NCBI GenBank assembly: GCA_900315105.1
Contig: OMXX01000267.1
Span: 1 to 6,111, forward strand
From: an uncultured Prevotellaceae bacterium
Lineage (GTDB): Bacteria > Bacteroidota > Bacteroidia > Bacteroidales > Bacteroidaceae
Reading direction: 5' to 3'
DNA: 6,111 nucleotides
Shown here piece by piece: positions 1 to 6,111 of this stretch. The notes under the pieces are model-generated. The model was not told the DNA's origin. It ran no database searches and saw nothing but the letters and a program-made list of their open reading frames with translations. A program made the translations under genes and the position numbers. Position 1 is the first letter of the stretch; each line of letters starts with the position of its first letter.

Positions 1-67
1 TTTTGGAAAATACAGTGTTATTATAGCAAAGTTTCCTGTTATCTCATCACTTGATAATTATTACTTA
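1..67. repeat. Terminal direct repeat, left copy (identical to 6045-6111)
   Basis: The 67 bases match the last 67 bases of the window with no difference. Both copies lie in the same coding frame, and joining them reconstitutes one lipoprotein gene. An exact odd-length end overlap is what de Bruijn-type assemblers commonly leave on a circular or tandemly repeated path (inference). A true tandem duplication would look the same in this window. Confidence 0.97.
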
Positions 68-220
68 GAATTGCATCAATATAAAGATTCAACCATTTCC
101 CTTGTTTTCTGTTTCAAAGTTCCAGACAGCGTCTATAGCGGTACCTATGATTCTCATATCTGGGGCTTATTCCCCAAAATTGAAAATTACATCAACAGAA
201 TCGAATACACAACAGAATAA
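1..220 (+). CDS. 3' part of a surface lipoprotein gene (continues from 5686-6111)
   Basis: An open frame enters from the window edge (first full codon at base 2) and stops with TAA at 218-220. It is the C-terminal part of the lipoprotein that begins at 5686: bases 1-67 repeat 6045-6111, and joining the two copies keeps the frame, giving a 192-residue product of which 68-217 encode the last 50 residues. The segment holds an IDFGKYSVII-type strand, then a hydrophobic pattern around LVFCFKVPD and a WGLFPKI motif near the end. This arrangement, with a conserved 'P-x-x-D-F' strand and a late 'ipk'-like strand, loosely recalls the C-terminal domain of the protease-complex lipoprotein PrcB, but similarity by eye is weak. 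Only 12 bases separate its stop from the next start at 233, so it is probably co-transcribed with the subtilisin-like gene. Confidence 0.85.
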   Translation, partial: FGKYSVIIAKFPVISSLDNYYLELHQYKDSTISLVFCFKVPDSVYSGTYDSHIWGLFPKIENYINRIEYTTE

Positions 221-232
221 AACACGACAAAA

Positions 233-2215
233 ATGAAATCCATTCTTTTAACACTTATTTCGTTACTGCTTAGCCTTTGTTTAGCAGCTCAACCCACAAT
301 TAATAATAACAAAACTGTATCAAGAATTATAACGGTAAAGCCCAAAGAGGACTCAAAGAATCTTTTTATGAAGAATTACGAATTCATCAGATCCAATTTC
401 TTAGGGTTCTTTGATGTATTAACTCCAGAAGGAAAAACGGTTGATGACTATATTGATGAATTAAAACATACGAACATATTCGAGTCAATTGACTATAACA
501 CAATAATTTCATTTGGTCAGCTCCCAACAAGAGAGACTATATATGCAAATGTTGAATCTCTGATCTTAAATGAAAGGAATACAACGAGTAGCAATTTCCC
601 GAATGATCCAGATTTTTCAAATCAATCTTATTTAGCATTAATAAATGCTAATGATGCATGGAATATCTCAACAGGTGATTCAACAATAAAAGTTGCAATT
701 ATCAATACAGGCATAGATTGTACTCATAACGATATTGGGATAGGCAATGATACTTATAGTAATGTAAACACATCTTTAGGAGAAAATTCGACACCCTATT
801 TTTCGTATGGCACGCAAATTGCAGGCTTGATTTGTGCAAAAACCAATAACGGTTTAGGTATTGCTGGGTTAGCAGGAGGAAACAACGGGCGCGGTGTCAC
901 TATCATCCCCTTTAATGCTATTGATGCGATGAATGACTATCAAATTGACGGATCTCTTATTGATGATTACATCTTAGAAGCTGTAAATATTGGTGCCCGA
1001 ATTATTCAAATAGACTTTAATTCTAATATGACATCAGCTTTAGAAGCTTCTATAAACTATGCATATAATAATGGCGTTACAATTGTTTGCGGAACAGGTA
1101 TGGATATGTCTGTTGCGCAAAATGCTACTGCTGTCAAATCACCAGCTTCAAACAATAGAGTTATAGGTGTAGGATGTTGTACAGGAACTTCAAACCCCTC
1201 ACGTTATTTTTCATGCTATGGCGAAGGAATAGACTTAGTTGCCCCTGGAGTTCAGTTATATACCACCACCCTTAATAATTCTTACTCACACCTTCACATT
1301 GGCACAGATTTAGCAGCATCATTAGTAACAGGGACAATCTCTCTTATGTTGTCTGTCAATCCAAATCTGACACCAAACGAGATTAGGACAATATTACATG
1401 ATACTGCATACAAAATACCTTTCTATTCTTCATGCTACAATAGTAACGGCTGGTGTGATGAAGTTGGCTATGGTCTTCTAGATGCCTATGCTGCCGTTCT
1501 TGCTGCCTTACAAATTAACATCACCGGATCTGATCCTTTATGCGGCGAGGAAATCTATACCATTAGTGGAATCCCAGCAGGGGCTTCAGTGTCGTTGGGA
1601 ACAAACACTGGAGGATTCTGGATTCAGAAGAGCGGCAACATCAGTTTTGACTCCTATAACAGCACAACCGGCGAACTATCCGTGCAGCAAACAACTCCCG
1701 GTAATGGCTATATAAAAGTCTATTACGACGACCATCTGCTGGCAACCAAAGAATTCTGGGTTGGCGGGCCAGAAATCACTAACTTCTACTATATGGGTAA
1801 CACGCTATACGCTGAGGCATCTGCATTATCGTTCTACTGGAACATCAATGGAACAACATTCTGGTCGCGCGAGGGGCGTAAGTATTACCCATTGGCTGAT
1901 GGAACTTATAACGTTTCTGTTTATGCTGTCATACCAAACTGTGGAGCAGGCCCAACCTATACCACCCAACTACATGTTTCAGGCGGCAACATGTACTCCC
2001 TCGGCGCTATCAGCAGCGACCATCAGGTGAGCATCGAGCCCATCGACTACAGCAATTCGCCGCAGCCGCTGGAGGCCATGCAGACGATGACATCGAAGCA
2101 AGCTGCCAATGACGTTCCCTACGAACTGAAGAACGCCATGACGGGCGAGGTGTCAGCACGGGGCGAGATGCCTGCCGAAGGTGGCGTACTCGACTTCAGC
2201 CGAGTGCGCAAATAA
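233..2215 (+). CDS. Secreted subtilisin-fold (S8-like) pseudoprotease with C-terminal sorting-domain remnant
   Basis: The 660-residue protein has a signal peptide (1-19, cleavage likely before Q20), a propeptide-like region (about 21-115), a subtilase fold (about 120-425), a beta-rich domain shared with the protease at 2782 (about 428-582), and a T9SS-type sorting module (about 590-659). The fold is recognisable: VAIINTG at 154-160 matches the usual IDTG strand, YGTQIAG at 192-198 matches HGTHVAG, GTDLAA at 357-362 matches GTSMAA, and the NPNLTP helix follows. At the catalytic positions, however, Asp is N158, His is Q195 and Ser is D359; the oxyanion Asn appears to be M290. It should therefore not hydrolyse peptides by the S8 mechanism and may bind or regulate a partner (inference). 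The sorting module ends abruptly with K660 and stop, lacking the final strands. The ATG at 233 follows an A-rich leader 12 nt after the preceding stop. Confidence 0.93.
   Translation: MKSILLTLISLLLSLCLAAQPTINNNKTVSRIITVKPKEDSKNLFMKNYEFIRSNFLGFFDVLTPEGKTVDDYIDELKHTNIFESIDYNTIISFGQLPTRETIYANVESLILNERNTTSSNFPNDPDFSNQSYLALINANDAWNISTGDSTIKVAIINTGIDCTHNDIGIGNDTYSNVNTSLGENSTPYFSYGTQIAGLICAKTNNGLGIAGLAGGNNGRGVTIIPFNAIDAMNDYQIDGSLIDDYILEAVNIGARIIQIDFNSNMTSALEASINYAYNNGVTIVCGTGMDMSVAQNATAVKSPASNNRVIGVGCCTGTSNPSRYFSCYGEGIDLVAPGVQLYTTTLNNSYSHLHIGTDLAASLVTGTISLMLSVNPNLTPNEIRTILHDTAYKIPFYSSCYNSNGWCDEVGYGLLDAYAAVLAALQINITGSDPLCGEEIYTISGIPAGASVSLGTNTGGFWIQKSGNISFDSYNSTTGELSVQQTTPGNGYIKVYYDDHLLATKEFWVGGPEITNFYYMGNTLYAEASALSFYWNINGTTFWSREGRKYYPLADGTYNVSVYAVIPNCGAGPTYTTQLHVSGGNMYSLGAISSDHQVSIEPIDYSNSPQPLEAMQTMTSKQAANDVPYELKNAMTGEVSARGEMPAEGGVLDFSRVRK
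2000..2209 (+). repeat. 210-bp sorting-module repeat, copy A (3' end of the pseudosubtilase gene)
   Basis: The stretch aligns without gaps to 4099-4308, with 7 differences by my count. The last 99 bases (2111-2209) are identical to 4210-4308. It encodes LGAISSDHQ through DFSRVR, the linker and most of a T9SS type-A-like sorting domain (beta strand VSIEPID, then the YELKNAMTGEV and GVLDFS segments). It is visibly GC-rich against AT-rich sequence upstream and downstream. The preceding domains of the two proteins are clearly related but much more diverged, so the module has been homogenised or recently copied. Immediately after the shared final GTGCGC, this copy runs into AAA TAA. Confidence 0.95.
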
Positions 2216-2242
2216 TGTATTTTTAAATGCCAACCATATAAA

Positions 2243-2785
2243 ATGAAAAAAGCAAATCTGTTCCTAATCGTTTTCCTATCAGTAACAATAGGGCTCATCA
2301 CCTCATGTAAGGATGATGAAGAAACAAGCTATAGCCTATCAGACTTAAAGTTGGAGTTCTATCTTGTCAATGATGACGGGGAAGTCTCCAATGTGTTTAA
2401 AGAAAAAGAGAATTTCCGAGGCATTTTCACTTTGACCAATCTCACCGACAAGGACTTTCTTCTACCATATGAAGAGTGGAATCGTTCATGGCAAGGAATG
2501 ACCTATTATATATATTCCGATGATGATCCGTCGTTATCTTGGGGAGCTGACATTTGGTTAATAGGAAGTGTGGGGCCGTGGTGGTTAAAATCCCATCAGA
2601 CCAAGACGAAAAAAATGAGCAAATGGTATTATTATGATGAAAACGGGGCAGATTTTGACGCCAAGCGTAATGAAGAACATTTTCTTCCTGCAGGCAACTA
2701 CCACGCAGAACTTGAGGTGAAAAATTTAAAGCGTGGGATGAAACCTATCACCCTCACCTATTCTTTTAAAATAGTAAAGCCATGA
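2243..2785 (+). CDS. Small surface lipoprotein between the two protease-fold genes
   Basis: The 180-residue protein has a lipoprotein signal peptide with lipobox ITSC ending at C22. The following KDDEE resembles the acidic export signal of surface-exposed Bacteroidota lipoproteins. The mature part looks like a single beta-sandwich: an LKLEFYLVNDDGEV strand, then FKEKENFRGIFTLTNLTD (about 51-68), a Trp/Tyr-rich middle, and a LPAGNYHAELEVKN strand near the C terminus. The order 'extended strand, TLTNLTD, PAGNY' loosely recalls Ig-like or BsuPI-type inhibitor folds, but I cannot assign a family. Its stop overlaps the start of the active protease by 4 bases (ATGA), so the two are probably translationally coupled. 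A role as chaperone, anchor or inhibitor of that protease is plausible but inferred only from position. The start at 2243 lies 27 nt after the preceding stop, in an A-rich leader without Shine-Dalgarno. Confidence 0.9.
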   Translation: MKKANLFLIVFLSVTIGLITSCKDDEETSYSLSDLKLEFYLVNDDGEVSNVFKEKENFRGIFTLTNLTDKDFLLPYEEWNRSWQGMTYYIYSDDDPSLSWGADIWLIGSVGPWWLKSHQTKTKKMSKWYYYDENGADFDAKRNEEHFLPAGNYHAELEVKNLKRGMKPITLTYSFKIVKP

Positions 2786-4410
2786 AAAAGACTATTCTTG
2801 CATTATTCACTATATTGAGTCTAACCTCGCTTGGGCAAACTTCGGGCGGTTATAATAATATTGCCTGCGATCCTGATTGGAAACCAGAATCGTATGGAAT
2901 AGCAAGAATTAAGATACCGATAGAAGGTAGAGTTGTTTCTCATGGTAACGGAGCTCTGGTCATGACAACAGACTATTCATACAAGCCCTATCTCTTGACA
3001 GCTTATCATGTATTGGACTTAAATGAAGACGGAATTGTCTCTAACCAAGAAATAGCGGCCCTCAGCAATGCAACGATTACGTTCAGGGATAAGCAAAAGA
3101 CATGCTTAGGTACAGAGAATGACTCTTCGGTAGTGTACACAGGCGCCTCATTGGTTGCTGCGTGGGAGGATACGGACTTTGCCCTCCTGAAGCTCACGGA
3201 GGATTTAGGGCCACATCCCGAGTTGTTTTTCCTGGGTTGGGACAAAAGTGGAAACACACCTGATTCAGCCGTTTGTATTTTCTTACCGCCATTTGAAAAG
3301 ATGAAAATTGCATACGAAGACAATCCTCTTCTCTCATGGAAAATTCATAACAACAATTATTATTACTGGCGGGCAGAGTTTGACGCTAGTGGTTTACCAG
3401 AGGGGGCTTCTGGTGCACCCGTGATTGATTACGATTTCAATATCGTAGGTACTCTAAAAGGAAATCGAGGCGAAAACGTTTCGCAACAAGTGGCGGGAAA
3501 ATTCAGCAGATCTTGGACTGGAGGAGGTTCATCTGCAACAAGACTGAAAACTTGGCTAGATCCCACTAATAGCGGACAGACGAGTATCAACGGTATGTAT
3601 AATGTTCCCATCAAGGGTGGCTGTAATCTTTTCTGCAATCAGGAGACCTTTACCATTTATCTGCCTAACAATTTTCCTGTGTCTGTTGGCTCCATCAACT
3701 CTACTGGTTTTTCAATCTTAACAAGTTCAAATCTTAGTATCAACTCCTATACAAACAGTTTATTAACGGTACAAAAAATATCCGATGGTAAAGGATTCAT
3801 CAAGATATATTACAAAGGAAGCCTCGTATCCAAGAGGGATGTTTGGGTAGGCGCGCCTGTTATCAGTGATGTCTATTACAGTAACGGATATCTATATGCA
3901 GAATGTAATGCAGAGTTTGAGCCATTCTCCTTTTTTTGGAAAGTTAATAACCAATCTTTCATGTCAGTAGAAGGGATGAAATGGCATCCATTAGCAAATG
4001 GCACTTACAATGTTGAAGTTTATTCCAACAACCTCTCTTGTGGTGCAGGACCGATCTATTATACACAAATCATTGTCACAGACAGCTATTATTATGCTCT
4101 CGGCGCCATCAGCAGCGACCATCAGGTGAGCATCGAGCCCATCGACTACAGCAATTCGCCGCAGCCGCTAGAGGCCATGCAGACGATGACTACGAAGCGA
4201 GCAGCCAAGGACGTTCCCTACGAACTGAAGAACGCCATGACGGGCGAGGTGTCAGCACGGGGCGAGATGCCTGCCGAAGGTGGCGTACTCGACTTCAGCC
4301 GAGTGCGCCTACGTGCTGACGCTCTCGCCGGCAGGCTGGGAGCCGGAAACCTTCAAAATTTCGCTGAAATAGGCAATCACGACACATACCGACAACAGAT
4401 TGCAACCTGA
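2782..4410 (+). CDS. Secreted trypsin/lysyl-endopeptidase-like serine protease, C-terminal sorting domain frameshifted
   Basis: The 542-residue protein has a signal peptide (1-18, likely cut before Q19), a chymotrypsin-fold protease domain (about 35-272), a beta-rich domain related to that of the pseudosubtilase (about 275-433), and a sorting module (440-509). The catalytic triad looks intact: H76 in KPYLLTAYHVL, D132 in DTDFALLKL, and S210 in EGASGAP, which fits the GxSGxP motif. The KPYLLTA strand, the SGAPVIDYDFNIVGTLKGN segment and the later GGGSSATRLKTWLDP stretch are like bacteroidal relatives of lysyl endopeptidase; whether it prefers Lys cannot be read here. After R509 the frame leaves the sorting domain: the final 33 residues (510-542) are out-of-frame sequence, while the genuine tail is encoded one base over at 4310-4372. 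The start overlaps the previous stop by 4 bases. A terminator-like hairpin follows 33 bases after the stop. Confidence 0.93.
   Translation: MKKTILALFTILSLTSLGQTSGGYNNIACDPDWKPESYGIARIKIPIEGRVVSHGNGALVMTTDYSYKPYLLTAYHVLDLNEDGIVSNQEIAALSNATITFRDKQKTCLGTENDSSVVYTGASLVAAWEDTDFALLKLTEDLGPHPELFFLGWDKSGNTPDSAVCIFLPPFEKMKIAYEDNPLLSWKIHNNNYYYWRAEFDASGLPEGASGAPVIDYDFNIVGTLKGNRGENVSQQVAGKFSRSWTGGGSSATRLKTWLDPTNSGQTSINGMYNVPIKGGCNLFCNQETFTIYLPNNFPVSVGSINSTGFSILTSSNLSINSYTNSLLTVQKISDGKGFIKIYYKGSLVSKRDVWVGAPVISDVYYSNGYLYAECNAEFEPFSFFWKVNNQSFMSVEGMKWHPLANGTYNVEVYSNNLSCGAGPIYYTQIIVTDSYYYALGAISSDHQVSIEPIDYSNSPQPLEAMQTMTTKRAAKDVPYELKNAMTGEVSARGEMPAEGGVLDFSRVRLRADALAGRLGAGNLQNFAEIGNHDTYRQQIAT
4099..4308 (+). 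repeat. 210-bp sorting-module repeat, copy B (3' part of the protease gene)
   Basis: This is the partner of 2000-2209, the same length with 7 substitutions and no gaps. The differences are all in the first 110 bases; the last 99 bases are identical. It encodes the linker and the first part of the T9SS-like sorting domain in frame. Similarity to copy A stops sharply after GTGCGC at 4308, the same base at which copy A diverges. Confidence 0.95.
4310..4372 (+). pseudogene. Out-of-frame tail of the T9SS sorting domain
   Basis: In the frame one base downstream of the protease frame, TAC at 4310 begins a 20-codon run ending in TAG at 4370-4372. The peptide, beginning YVLTLSP, containing GWEPETF and ending KISLK, has the form of the last strands of a T9SS type-A sorting domain: family members usually read DFS-x-x-x-PG-x-YVL-x-L before a final strand. 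The PG-x piece expected between R509 and this Tyr is absent. A deletion of about 8 bases from an intact gene would explain both the missing residues and the frame change (inference). Confidence 0.8.
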
Positions 4411-4441
4411 CTATTTGCTTTTTAATTACCTGAAAAGGATA

Positions 4442-4558
4442 CTGCGCCCGCCTGGCTTTCATGGCCTGGCGGGTGCTTTCGTGTTACAATTTTTTCGCCC
4501 TTTTTCGGGGGTAAAACCGCGACAAACGCCCTAAACATCGGGATTCTTGTTTCTTACC
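4442..4558. repeat. 117-bp direct repeat, copy 1 (terminator hairpin plus conserved tail)
   Basis: It aligns without gaps to 5411-5527 with 12 differences by my count. The left part contains the hairpin at 4444-4476. The right part, from TGTTACAATTTTTTCGCCC to GATTCTTGTTTCTTACC, is more strongly conserved and is non-coding in any evident way. The copy ends abruptly at 4558 against sequence that reads as RhuM coding sequence, whereas the other copy continues into unrelated promoter DNA. Confidence 0.93.
4444..4476 (+). terminator. Hairpin terminator after the protease gene
   Basis: GCGCCCGC pairs with GCGGGTGC (one G-T wobble), the stem extends inward with a T-T mismatch and further pairs, and the loop is TTCAT. 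A run of six T at 4490-4495 lies 13 bases after the stem rather than directly behind it, so intrinsic termination is likely but not textbook. Compared with the second copy (5413-5445), several stem positions differ while pairing is kept, which supports a real RNA structure. Confidence 0.7.
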
Positions 4559-4614
4559 AGTTAGAGAAAGAACAGGTATGTGCAAAATTTGCACATACCA
4601 CTCAACATGGAGCA
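4559..4614 (+). other. Residual 5' RhuM coding sequence upstream of the first ATG
   Basis: In frame with the ATG at 4615, bases 4558-4614 read QLEKEQVCAKFAHTTQHGA, which continues directly into the downstream protein and fits the RhuM-family region lying between the N-terminal DNA-binding-like part and the LDVIISVGYRVKS block. No start codon other than rare ones precedes it. The frame stays open back to a TAA at 4423-4425, but only through the 117-bp repeat, which is not RhuM-like. The original gene start has therefore been lost and replaced by the repeat. Confidence 0.75.
4575..4599. repeat. Perfect 25-nt palindrome (12-bp arms, one central base)
   Basis: The arms GGTATGTGCAAA and TTTGCACATACC are exact reverse complements around a single A. 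It lies inside the remnant RhuM coding frame, over the codons for VCAKFAHT, and ends 15 bases before the ATG at 4615. It could be an operator for a dimeric regulator, a hairpin masking the start, or a by-product of the codons for a conserved peptide. Confidence 0.9.
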
Positions 4615-5385
4615 ATGGTAGGAAGAACGCAAACCCAAGAAACGGTTTTGTATAACCTAGACGTCATCATTTCTGTAGGCTACCGCGTCAAAAGCAAGCG
4701 AGGCACAGCATTTCGCATTTGGGCACGTAATGTCCTCAAGCAGTATCTCGTCAAAGGCTACGCTGTCAATGAGCGCATGCGGCGTGAGCAGATTGGCGAG
4801 TTGCGACAACTGGTGGGGATGCTGGGGCGCACCATTCAGAACCAACCCGTGCTCTCCACCGATGAAAGCAACGCCCTGTTTGAGGTGGTGACAGACTACA
4901 CCTATGCCCTCGACACCCTTGACAACTACGATTATCAACGGCTGACCATACAGGGAACCACCCAAGAGGAGCCCTTTCATGCGACGTACGAGAACGCGAT
5001 GAAGGAGATAAACCTATTGCGGGAGAAATTCGGCGGCTCGGTGCTCTTTGGCAATGAGAAGGACGACTCTTTCAAGAGCAGCATCGGGCAGATCTACCAG
5101 ACCTTCGGAGGCAAAGAACTATATCCCAGCGTAGAGGAGAAAGCCGCCATGCTGCTTTATCTGGTCACGAAGAATCATTCTTTCAGCGATGGAAACAAAC
5201 GTATTGCCGCCACGCTGTTTCTGTGGTTCCTCAACAACAATCGCATTCTCTATCATGCTGACGGTTCAAAGCGCATTCCTGACAACACGCTTGTTGCCCT
5301 CACGCTGATGATTGCCGAAAGCCGAACTGAGGAAAAGGACGTGATGGTAAAGGTTGTGGTAAACCTCATTAACCACAACAACTGA
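4615..5385 (+). CDS. rhuM: RhuM-family protein with Fic/Doc-type C-terminal domain, N-terminally truncated
   Basis: From the first ATG the product has 256 residues. It opens with the RhuM-family block YNLDVIISVGYRVKSKRG (13-30) and the FRIWARNVLKQYLVKGYAVNE region (33-53), followed by a helical linker (about 55-110) and a Fic/Doc-like domain (about 115-250). The motif HSFSDGNKR at 188-196 matches HxFx[D/N]xNKR, with Lys at the position that is Gly in AMP-transferring Fic enzymes, so it is closer to Doc, a kinase toxin. Family members are usually longer by an N-terminal segment with a helix-turn-helix look; that part is missing here and the homology begins at the repeat junction near 4558. The protein may be non-functional or a stand-alone domain. 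It sits between two terminator-bearing repeats with no visible promoter of its own and is probably not part of the protease operon. No antitoxin gene is visible. Confidence 0.88.
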   Translation: MVGRTQTQETVLYNLDVIISVGYRVKSKRGTAFRIWARNVLKQYLVKGYAVNERMRREQIGELRQLVGMLGRTIQNQPVLSTDESNALFEVVTDYTYALDTLDNYDYQRLTIQGTTQEEPFHATYENAMKEINLLREKFGGSVLFGNEKDDSFKSSIGQIYQTFGGKELYPSVEEKAAMLLYLVTKNHSFSDGNKRIAATLFLWFLNNNRILYHADGSKRIPDNTLVALTLMIAESRTEEKDVMVKVVVNLINHNN

Positions 5386-5410
5386 ACACAATCTTATTTT
5401 CAATTTACAC

Positions 5411-5527
5411 CTGCGCCCGCTTGACCTTCATGGCCAGGCGGGCGCGTTTGTGTTACAATTTTTTCGCCCTTTTTCGAGGGTAGAACCGCTGCAAACGCCC
5501 TAAACATGGGGATTCTTGTTTCTTACC
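5411..5527. repeat. 117-bp direct repeat, copy 2
   Basis: It has the same length and order as 4442-4558, about 90% identical. It starts 25 bases after the RhuM stop and ends at TTCTTACC, after which the sequence becomes CCCTGGAAAAAAC and then the promoter region of the lipoprotein gene. Together with copy 1 it brackets the RhuM gene as direct repeats. Confidence 0.93.
5413..5445 (+). terminator. Hairpin terminator after the RhuM gene
   Basis: GCGCCCGC and GCGGGCGC form a perfect 8-bp stem, extended by T-G, T-A and G-C pairs, one A-C mismatch and two further C-G pairs, around a TTCAT loop. Six T residues at 5459-5464 follow 13 bases later. It is the structural counterpart of 4444-4476 and probably insulates the protease operon promoter from upstream transcription. 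Confidence 0.72.
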
Positions 5528-5575
5528 CCCTGGAAAAAACTGTAACAATGTTAAAGCGATTTAACACTAAAATGC

Positions 5576-5606
5576 TTGCAAGGAATCTTTTTTCACTCTA
5601 ACTTTG
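5576..5606 (+). promoter_or_regulatory. Bacteroidota-type promoter for the lipoprotein-protease operon
   Basis: TAACTTTG at 5599-5606 fits the TAnnTTTG -7 element of Bacteroidota primary sigma factor promoters. A TTG at 5576-5578 lies 20 bases upstream of it and can serve as the -33 element. Transcription would start near 5612, leaving a leader of roughly 70 bases before the ATG at 5686. The leader contains a short AGCCG/CGGCT hairpin at 5616-5632 and ends in A-rich sequence. It is the only convincing promoter I see and, in the closed reading, would drive all four downstream genes. Confidence 0.7.
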
Positions 5607-5685
5607 CCTACGGAAAGCCGACAACGACGGCTACCGCACGATAGAAAAAACAATATAATGTAGAACTCAAAAAAACAATACAACG

Positions 5686-6111
5686 ATGAAAAAACTGTTT
5701 TACCTTTTCAACACCCTGCTGCTCACAGCAACCCTTGCCGCCTGCTCCAGCGACTACGACGATCCGCCCGAGCAGCCCAACTCGCATCAGAACGAAGTGT
5801 CTGTGGACAGCGTTGACAGCACCCAGGATGAAGGAGCCTCAAAGGACTACACCGTCATCTCCACCGTACCCGTCAGCGAGGAAGTGAAGGCTTTCTTCGA
5901 TGAGGCGCTGCCCAAAGAAGAAGGAAATACCGCTTATTTCTATTTCGATAATCATGCAACAAGTTCTTATTCTTATTATGTTATAAATAATGAGAAAGAA
6001 TTACGAGAAAGGTACAAAGGTAATAAAGAACTACCAATTATCGATTTTGGAAAATACAGTGTTATTATAGCAAAGTTTCCTGTTATCTCATCACTTGATA
6101 ATTATTACTTA
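5686..6111 (+). CDS. 5' part of a surface lipoprotein gene (continues at 1-220); PrcB-like resemblance is tentative
   Basis: Starting at ATG 5686, 142 codons run to the window end. The completed product over the end repeat is 192 residues. A lipoprotein signal peptide ends in LAAC with C20 as the lipidated residue, followed by SSDYDD, which suggests outer-membrane and possibly surface location. Residues 25-60 form a polar, acidic, probably disordered spacer. A folded domain follows: VSEEVKAFF (63-70), YYVINNEKELRERYKG (97-112), then ELPIIDFGKYSVIIAKF (115-131). The order 'short helix, PxxDF strand, hydrophobic strand' resembles PrcB-type domains; in Treponema, PrcB is a lipoprotein partner of a subtilisin-like protease, which fits the neighbour here, but the match is by eye and could be wrong. 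Codons up to about residue 78 are GC-rich, later ones AT-rich, a sharp change inside one gene. Confidence 0.88.
   Translation, partial: MKKLFYLFNTLLLTATLAACSSDYDDPPEQPNSHQNEVSVDSVDSTQDEGASKDYTVISTVPVSEEVKAFFDEALPKEEGNTAYFYFDNHATSSYSYYVINNEKELRERYKGNKELPIIDFGKYSVIIAKFPVISSLDNYYL
6045..6111. repeat. Terminal direct repeat, right copy (identical to 1-67)
   Basis: It is the exact copy of the first 67 bases, in the same coding frame. With one copy removed the unit is 6044 bp. See the left copy for interpretation. Confidence 0.97.

Follow-up and report, generated by a model that had tools for sequence, protein, structure and literature searches.

A probable secreted pseudo-subtilase in a lipoprotein-linked, possibly exchangeable cassette of an uncultured Prevotellaceae bacterium

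What is a subtilisin-like protein for once every residue of its active site has been replaced? The question is raised by a gene on a 6,111-nucleotide contig of an uncultured Prevotellaceae bacterium (NCBI GenBank assembly GCA_900315105.1, contig OMXX01000267.1, positions 1 to 6,111), referred to here as the window. The gene, an open reading frame (ORF) at 233-2215 on the forward strand, runs over 660 codons as assembled without an internal stop, as reported in a first-pass annotation, and its product matches Pfam Peptidase_S8 over residues 150-414 (E 1.4e-23, 84.1 bits, cut-off 21.8). Profile and structure both placed the protein in the Peptidase S8 (subtilase) fold, in line with the same annotation: residues 121-424 of the predicted model align with thermitase over 271 residues, the propeptide region lies within a match to unprocessed pro-Tk-subtilisin, and the mirolase structure was also among the structure-search matches. 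None of the active-subtilisin residues is kept, and the window protein is almost certainly a pseudoprotease.

Residue equivalences were taken from a HMMER alignment to subtilisin BPN' (1sbt), numbered by script; many solved subtilisins were aligned to the window protein by HMMER. We take Asp32, His64, Ser221 and the oxyanion Asn155 to be the catalytic residues of BPN'. The corresponding residues of the window protein are N158, Y192, D359 and M290. The annotation had already described all four as replaced, and its assignment of N158, M290 and D359 agrees with the alignment. It misplaced the histidine at Q195, which corresponds to His67 of BPN', a non-catalytic position that varies freely (M, F, A, I and others) in triad-bearing relatives; the His64 position is Y192, in the motif S-Y-G-T. 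Column 192 holds His in at least 90% of the rows of a 68-row alignment and, in the 144-row alignment described below, His in 134 rows, Tyr in 6 (all of the window type) and a gap in 4.

Two homologue searches yielded 281 proteins (120 listed) and, with an alignment of dead forms as query, 163 proteins (120 listed). From these, 152 proteins were collected, 8 non-S8 proteins were set aside and 144 were aligned; the rows represent the listed matches plus one subtilase from the C-terminal module search, not the whole family. Written in the order Asp/His/Asn/Ser, the active-site states were DHNS in 105 rows, NYMD in the 6 window-type rows, DHDH in 2 (P0009 and P0129) and DHYD in 1 (P0019). The other 30 rows keep Ser (12 EHNS, 7 DHKS, 2 DHRS, one each of DHFS, EHKS, DHHS and EHRS, plus 4 rows gapped at both Asp and His and 1 gapped at Asp). 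The Ser221 position is thus kept in 135 of the 144 rows and lost in nine; none of the nine keeps the oxyanion Asn either, and the Ser is replaced by Asp or His only. Single positions also vary among Ser keepers: 13 of the 144 carry Lys, Arg, His or Phe at the oxyanion Asn (P0007, P0013, P0040, P0059, P0070, P0071, P0073, P0076, P0091, P0136, P0139, P0140 and P0142), and 14 have Glu at the Asp32 position with His and Ser kept (e.g. P0044, P0058, P0064 and P0100).

The window-type sequences are few and nearly identical, with three alleles over residues 1-425; P0002, P0003 and P0004 are identical to the window protein over these residues, and identical copies lie on other contigs. All nine Ser-less proteins have a linker of 33-38 residues between propeptide and catalytic domain, against 8-9 residues in 110 of the 126 other measurable rows (maximum 27). 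In a 108-row tree built without the four active-site columns, five Ser-less rows fell on one side of a branch with a Shimodaira-Hasegawa-like approximate likelihood-ratio (SH-aLRT) support of 87. A 42-row tree, from which the active-site positions and 4 residues on each side had been removed, supported the Ser-less group at 94/81, and both P0001 (window type) with P0006 and P0009 with P0129 and P0019 at 100/99. These trees favour a single origin of the Ser loss, and the common long linker is a further pointer to it. P0019 as listed has no visible signal peptide, and its start is therefore unsure. Among the matches listed, the closest with a named source is P0005 (96% identical), from a metagenome-assembled genome named Aeriscardovia sp., in which it may lie on a mis-binned contig; more distant named sources were Prevotella, Paludibacteraceae, Lentimicrobiaceae, a Bacteroidetes bacterium and an Acidobacteriota bacterium.

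To what extent the fold is still under selection was addressed with 57 near-invariant columns over residues 123-424, defined from 130 other relatives. P0001 is changed at 7 of these, P0009 at 6, P0129 at 7 and P0019 at 9, whereas the median for other relatives is 2. Five of the changes in P0001 lie in or beside the cleft (columns 192, 261, 290, 359 and 363, with 261 and 363 corresponding to Ser125 and Pro225 of BPN'); the other two are at 132 and 370. Ser125 lies on the SLGG strand, which takes part in substrate binding. With active-site columns excluded, 39 of 41 near-invariant columns and 117 of 195 others are the same in P0009 and P0019; for P0001 and P0009 the counts are 37 of 41 and 82 of 194. 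As a yardstick, six Ser-bearing pairs agree at 39-41 of the 41; pairs with P0001 agree at 36-37, a slightly weaker constraint. The agreement among Ser-less pairs argues that the fold was maintained after the Ser was lost. For P0009 and P0019 this is likely, given the 100/99 node, and for P0001 and P0009 it would depend on a common dead ancestor. Collectively, we consider it very probable that the pseudo-subtilase is maintained by selection as a protein. In agreement with the annotation, which saw complete loss of the active site in a retained fold and not simple decay, the structure match, the diverged Ser-less relatives and the identical copies elsewhere point the same way.

Comparison with triad-bearing relatives revealed a mosaic. 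P0008, which retains all four active-site residues, is 36% identical to the window protein over residues 1-122, 54% over 123-225, 41% over 226-370, 93% over 371-425 and 96% over 426-640. The same segments of P0007, which retains the triad and has Lys at the oxyanion position, are 38, 52, 41, 89 and 98% identical. In P0006 the pattern is the opposite: identity is 98-99% up to residue 370 and falls to 85% and 31% in the last two segments. When the C-terminal module of P0003 was searched for in proteins of similar length, 19 proteins (47-100% identity) shared it: 11 S8 proteins, both dead and triad-bearing, 5 trypsin-like proteins (P0121, P0122, P0124, P0125 and P0128), 2 M4 metalloproteases (P0012 and P0126) and 1 protein with no Pfam domain. 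The last, P0123 (624 residues), suggests that the module may extend beyond known proteases. The 15 tails compared end in FKISLK, FKLSLK or similar. Against sorting-domain profiles of the type IX secretion system, P0003 gave no match and P0019 scored 19.9 bits, below the cut-off of 23; PF18962 is annotated (precomputed) on some other relatives.

Base composition follows a similar course. Near codon 81 of the lipoprotein gene upstream of the pseudo-subtilase, the GC content at third codon positions (GC3) declines from 60-80% to 15-20%; in the dead subtilase it remains at 15-38% until roughly codon 440 and climbs from there to 50-55%, reaching 82% in a repeat shared with the next protease gene. 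This course is compatible with import of the lipoprotein domain and the subtilase as a single block.

Taken together, the loss of the active site, the predicted fold, the diverged Ser-less group that keeps it and the mosaic are best explained by a secreted pseudoprotease in an exchangeable lipoprotein cassette, a reading to which we give a probability of roughly 60%. The protein would be exported by its putative signal peptide and fold together with its propeptide. Lacking the Ser nucleophile, it could not cleave this propeptide off itself, and a persistent zymogen-like pro-form would result. The C-terminal module, common to sister proteases of several classes, would carry the protein outward. 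The pseudo-subtilase and the lipoprotein whose gene ends 12 nt before its own would form a cassette, as in the KLIKK/potempin layout, and recombination in the shared ends could swap this dead cassette for one with an active subtilase, presumably at one locus.

Several observations weigh against this explanation. P0009, P0129 and P0019 retain Asp and His. The six N/Y/M/D rows are too few and too alike to establish that this exact combination is conserved; the annotation had suggested looking for the same substitutions in homologues, and the other Ser-less members carry different ones. The 7 changes of P0001 at near-invariant columns leave some relaxation possible. Approximately unbiased (AU) tests did not reject trees that place either Ser-less type with the triad-bearing P0007/P0008 group (p-AU 0.086 and 0.181). 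Nor is a GC step peculiar to this part of the contig: ahead of its repeat, the trypsin-like gene has a GC3 of 32-60%. For the upstream lipoprotein, nothing relevant to an inhibitor family was found in Pfam or among PDB sequences, with no potempin match, and the PrcB profile of dentilisin scored 15.9 bits (cut-off 125). Finally, the contigs that would place proteases side by side are paired by size: the one contig given for dead P0004 has 151,987 bases, as has the one given for trypsin-like P0128, and for trypsin-like P0122 and for P0008 the single contig measures 82,279 bases, from which we infer that each pair shares a contig. If so, dead and active subtilases would be alternatives near the same protease.

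These pairs bear on the annotation's proposal of a regulator of the active protease encoded two genes downstream, considered here as a dedicated allosteric regulator or scaffold of this trypsin-like protein, comparable to CspC and CspA acting on CspB. That neighbour has intact motifs (TAYH, DTDFAL and GASGAP) and the same terminal repeat, the P0004/P0128 pair would fit, and CspC provides a precedent (available parts of PMC6636752). However, P0122 and P0128 are each 299/300 identical to the neighbour over residues 1-300, and P0122 apparently shares a contig with P0008, which keeps all four residues, so the downstream protease seems not to need a dead partner. We regard this role as unlikely; the annotation's regulator proposal retains the intact neighbour in its favour and is weakened by P0122. 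Somewhat less likely still is a dead allele in passing, one that lost its active site following recombination or drift and persists only by hitch-hiking on frequent cassette exchange. The near identity of the window-type sequences within mosaics and the excess of changes at near-invariant columns would suit such an allele. It accounts poorly for P0009 and P0019, which have diverged to 63% identity yet kept these columns, for the long linker in all nine Ser-less members and for the clustering of 5 of 7 changes of P0001 at the cleft. That the protein is not dead and other cleft residues perform a different catalysis is highly improbable. The restriction of the Ser replacements to Asp or His hints at it, and sedolisins have Asp at the oxyanion site; yet the window type has no nucleophile at any classical position, the replacements differ among members (N/Y/M/D, D/H/D/H, D/H/Y/D) and the substrate-strand Ser125 is lost as well.

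How does the secreted pseudoprotease compare with known systems? Among the literature matches listed, the bacterial pseudo-subtilases were the clostridial spore Csp proteins; no pseudo-subtilase of Bacteroidales or among the KLIKK proteases was found there, subscription papers being mostly outside the coverage. Like the window protein, CspC and CspA of Clostridioides difficile have a subtilisin-like fold that lacks catalytic residues; CspC, whose active relative is CspB, has an unprocessed propeptide and is a proposed bile acid germinant sensor. Unlike the window protein, which retains none of the set, CspC retains Asp; the Csp proteins also carry an inserted jelly-roll of about 130 residues and function in spores (all from the available parts of PMC6636752). 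The thermitase alignment leaves no room for such an insertion, and the window protein has a putative signal peptide, recognised by eye, and a C-terminal module, unlike Csp. No Csp protein was noticed among the best 50 structure-search rows, which excludes nothing. The secreted KLIKK proteases of Tannerella forsythia comprise several classes with a near-identical C-terminal domain and a small lipoprotein gene before each, and no dead member is mentioned in the available parts of PMC4404884 and PMC7296668. The locus resembles them in the module common to S8, trypsin-like and M4 proteins and in its upstream lipoprotein gene. It differs in the tails, which lack a terminal Lys-Leu-Ile-Lys-Lys, and from KLIKK/potempin pairs in its dead protease and in lipoproteins for which no inhibitor homology was detected. 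PIMMS2 of Plasmodium is likewise a proposed subtilisin-like pseudoenzyme whose catalytic residues vary between orthologues, but it is a eukaryotic parasite protein with a transmembrane segment, and in P. berghei its triad residues are retained (available parts of PMC5520436). Dentilisin (PrcB/PrtP) of Treponema denticola also links a lipoprotein to a subtilisin-family protease, in this case the active PrtP; dentilisin profiles (NCBIfam) scored far under their cut-offs, PrcB as given above and the other at 74.2 of 300 bits. Other family assignments were rejected as reflecting the shared fold only: a defence family (PADLOC generic subtilase profile, 52.2 bits), PHROG 3677 'protease' (108 bits) and mycosin (NCBIfam, 129.2 bits, below the cut-off of 278.75).

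Table 1 Features of the window and of the pseudo-subtilase gene. pLDDT, predicted local distance difference test.
Feature	Position	Strand	Basis or remark
Pseudo-subtilase gene	233..2215	+	ORF, Pfam, BPN' alignment
Putative Sec signal peptide, residues 1-19	233..289	+	By eye from sequence
Propeptide domain, residues 31-90	323..502	+	Block pLDDT 91-94; within pro-Tk-subtilisin match
Long linker, 33 residues between N89 and P123	500..598	+	Block pLDDT 48-62, residues 91-120
Subtilase (S8) domain, residues 123-425	599..1507	+	Pfam, BPN' alignment, structure match
N158, catalytic Asp32 position	704..706	+	BPN' alignment, 144-row alignment
Y192, catalytic His64 position	806..808	+	BPN' alignment, 68- and 144-row alignments
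D261, Ser125 of SLGG strand	1013..1015	+	Near-invariant column comparison
M290, oxyanion Asn155 position	1100..1102	+	BPN' alignment, 144-row alignment
D359, catalytic Ser221 position	1307..1309	+	BPN' alignment, 144-row alignment
C-terminal module, final residues missing in window copy	1508..2212	+	Module search, sequence comparison
270-nt repeat copy	1940..2209	+	89% identical to 4039-4308 in next protease gene
Second lipoprotein gene	2243..2785	+	Lipobox by eye; 4-nt overlap with trypsin-like gene start
Trypsin-like secreted protease	2782..4410	+	His/Asp/Ser motifs intact; same terminal repeat
Upstream lipoprotein gene, first part	5686..6111	+	Continues at 1-220 if contig circular
Upstream lipoprotein gene, last part	1..220	+	Stop 12 nt before pseudo-subtilase start

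A small lipoprotein ORF thus lies directly upstream of each protease gene, one of them (5686-220) wrapping round the contig ends; both lipoboxes were recognised by eye. The gene 2 product, predicted alone, gave a poor model (pLDDT 44). The annotation's view of the pseudo-subtilase gene as intact holds for the frame and fails at the 3' end, where P0003 has 23 further residues (SGLYVLTL...FKLSLK) in place of a single K; this shortening is probably an assembly break in the repeat. The proper tail is missing from both protease genes beyond the same point of the shared repeat (2205-2215 and 4300-4410), which looks like assembly trouble; P0002 and P0128 are irregular at or near this point, each differently, and intact copies exist. 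The contig ends (1-67 and 6045-6111) form an exact 67-nt repeat, so the contig represents either a circle of 6,044 nt or a repeat path that was collapsed. Since identical subtilases are listed with contigs of up to 56.6 and 152 kb, the gene seems to be chromosomal, and assembly may have produced the circle.

A phage or plasmid origin was rejected: no nucleotide match was found among plasmids or phages, and the protein matches (60 and 14 records) were all below 60% identity, none above 80% of the query. The upstream lipoprotein had no match in plasmids. In viral contigs, neither the window protein, the trypsin-like protein nor a 20-base repeat pattern was matched, and the alignment query found 16 distant loci (27-32%); genome contigs searched with the window protein gave just one distant archaeal locus (26%). 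Downstream of the proteases, two copies (87%) of a 128-nt intergenic element, at 4442-4569 and 5411-5538, flank a RhuM-Fic gene; both form strong hairpins (z -3.7 and -4.6). The match of the RhuM-Fic protein (4615-5385) to the PADLOC candidate PDC-S23 (E 5.5e-111) begins only at profile position 77, and the reading frame continues 5' into the repeat element without a stop, which suggests that the normal start of the gene is missing. Rfam gave no match at gathering scores.

What, then, could a secreted pseudoprotease do in such a cassette? Tentatively, it may bind lipoprotein inhibitors, foreign inhibitors or substrates and leave them intact, acting as a decoy for or modulator of its active sister proteases. 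A more speculative picture is one locus in the population with interchangeable lipoprotein and subtilase cassettes, some working and some a long-established pseudoprotease, where recombination would switch between a cutting and a binding-only surface protein. If the cassette explanation is correct, secreted pseudo-subtilases in KLIKK-like sets, with triad-bearing proteins sharing their module, would offer a natural comparison for the purpose of a dead protease, and the inhibitor-decoy and regulatory ideas would become directly testable.
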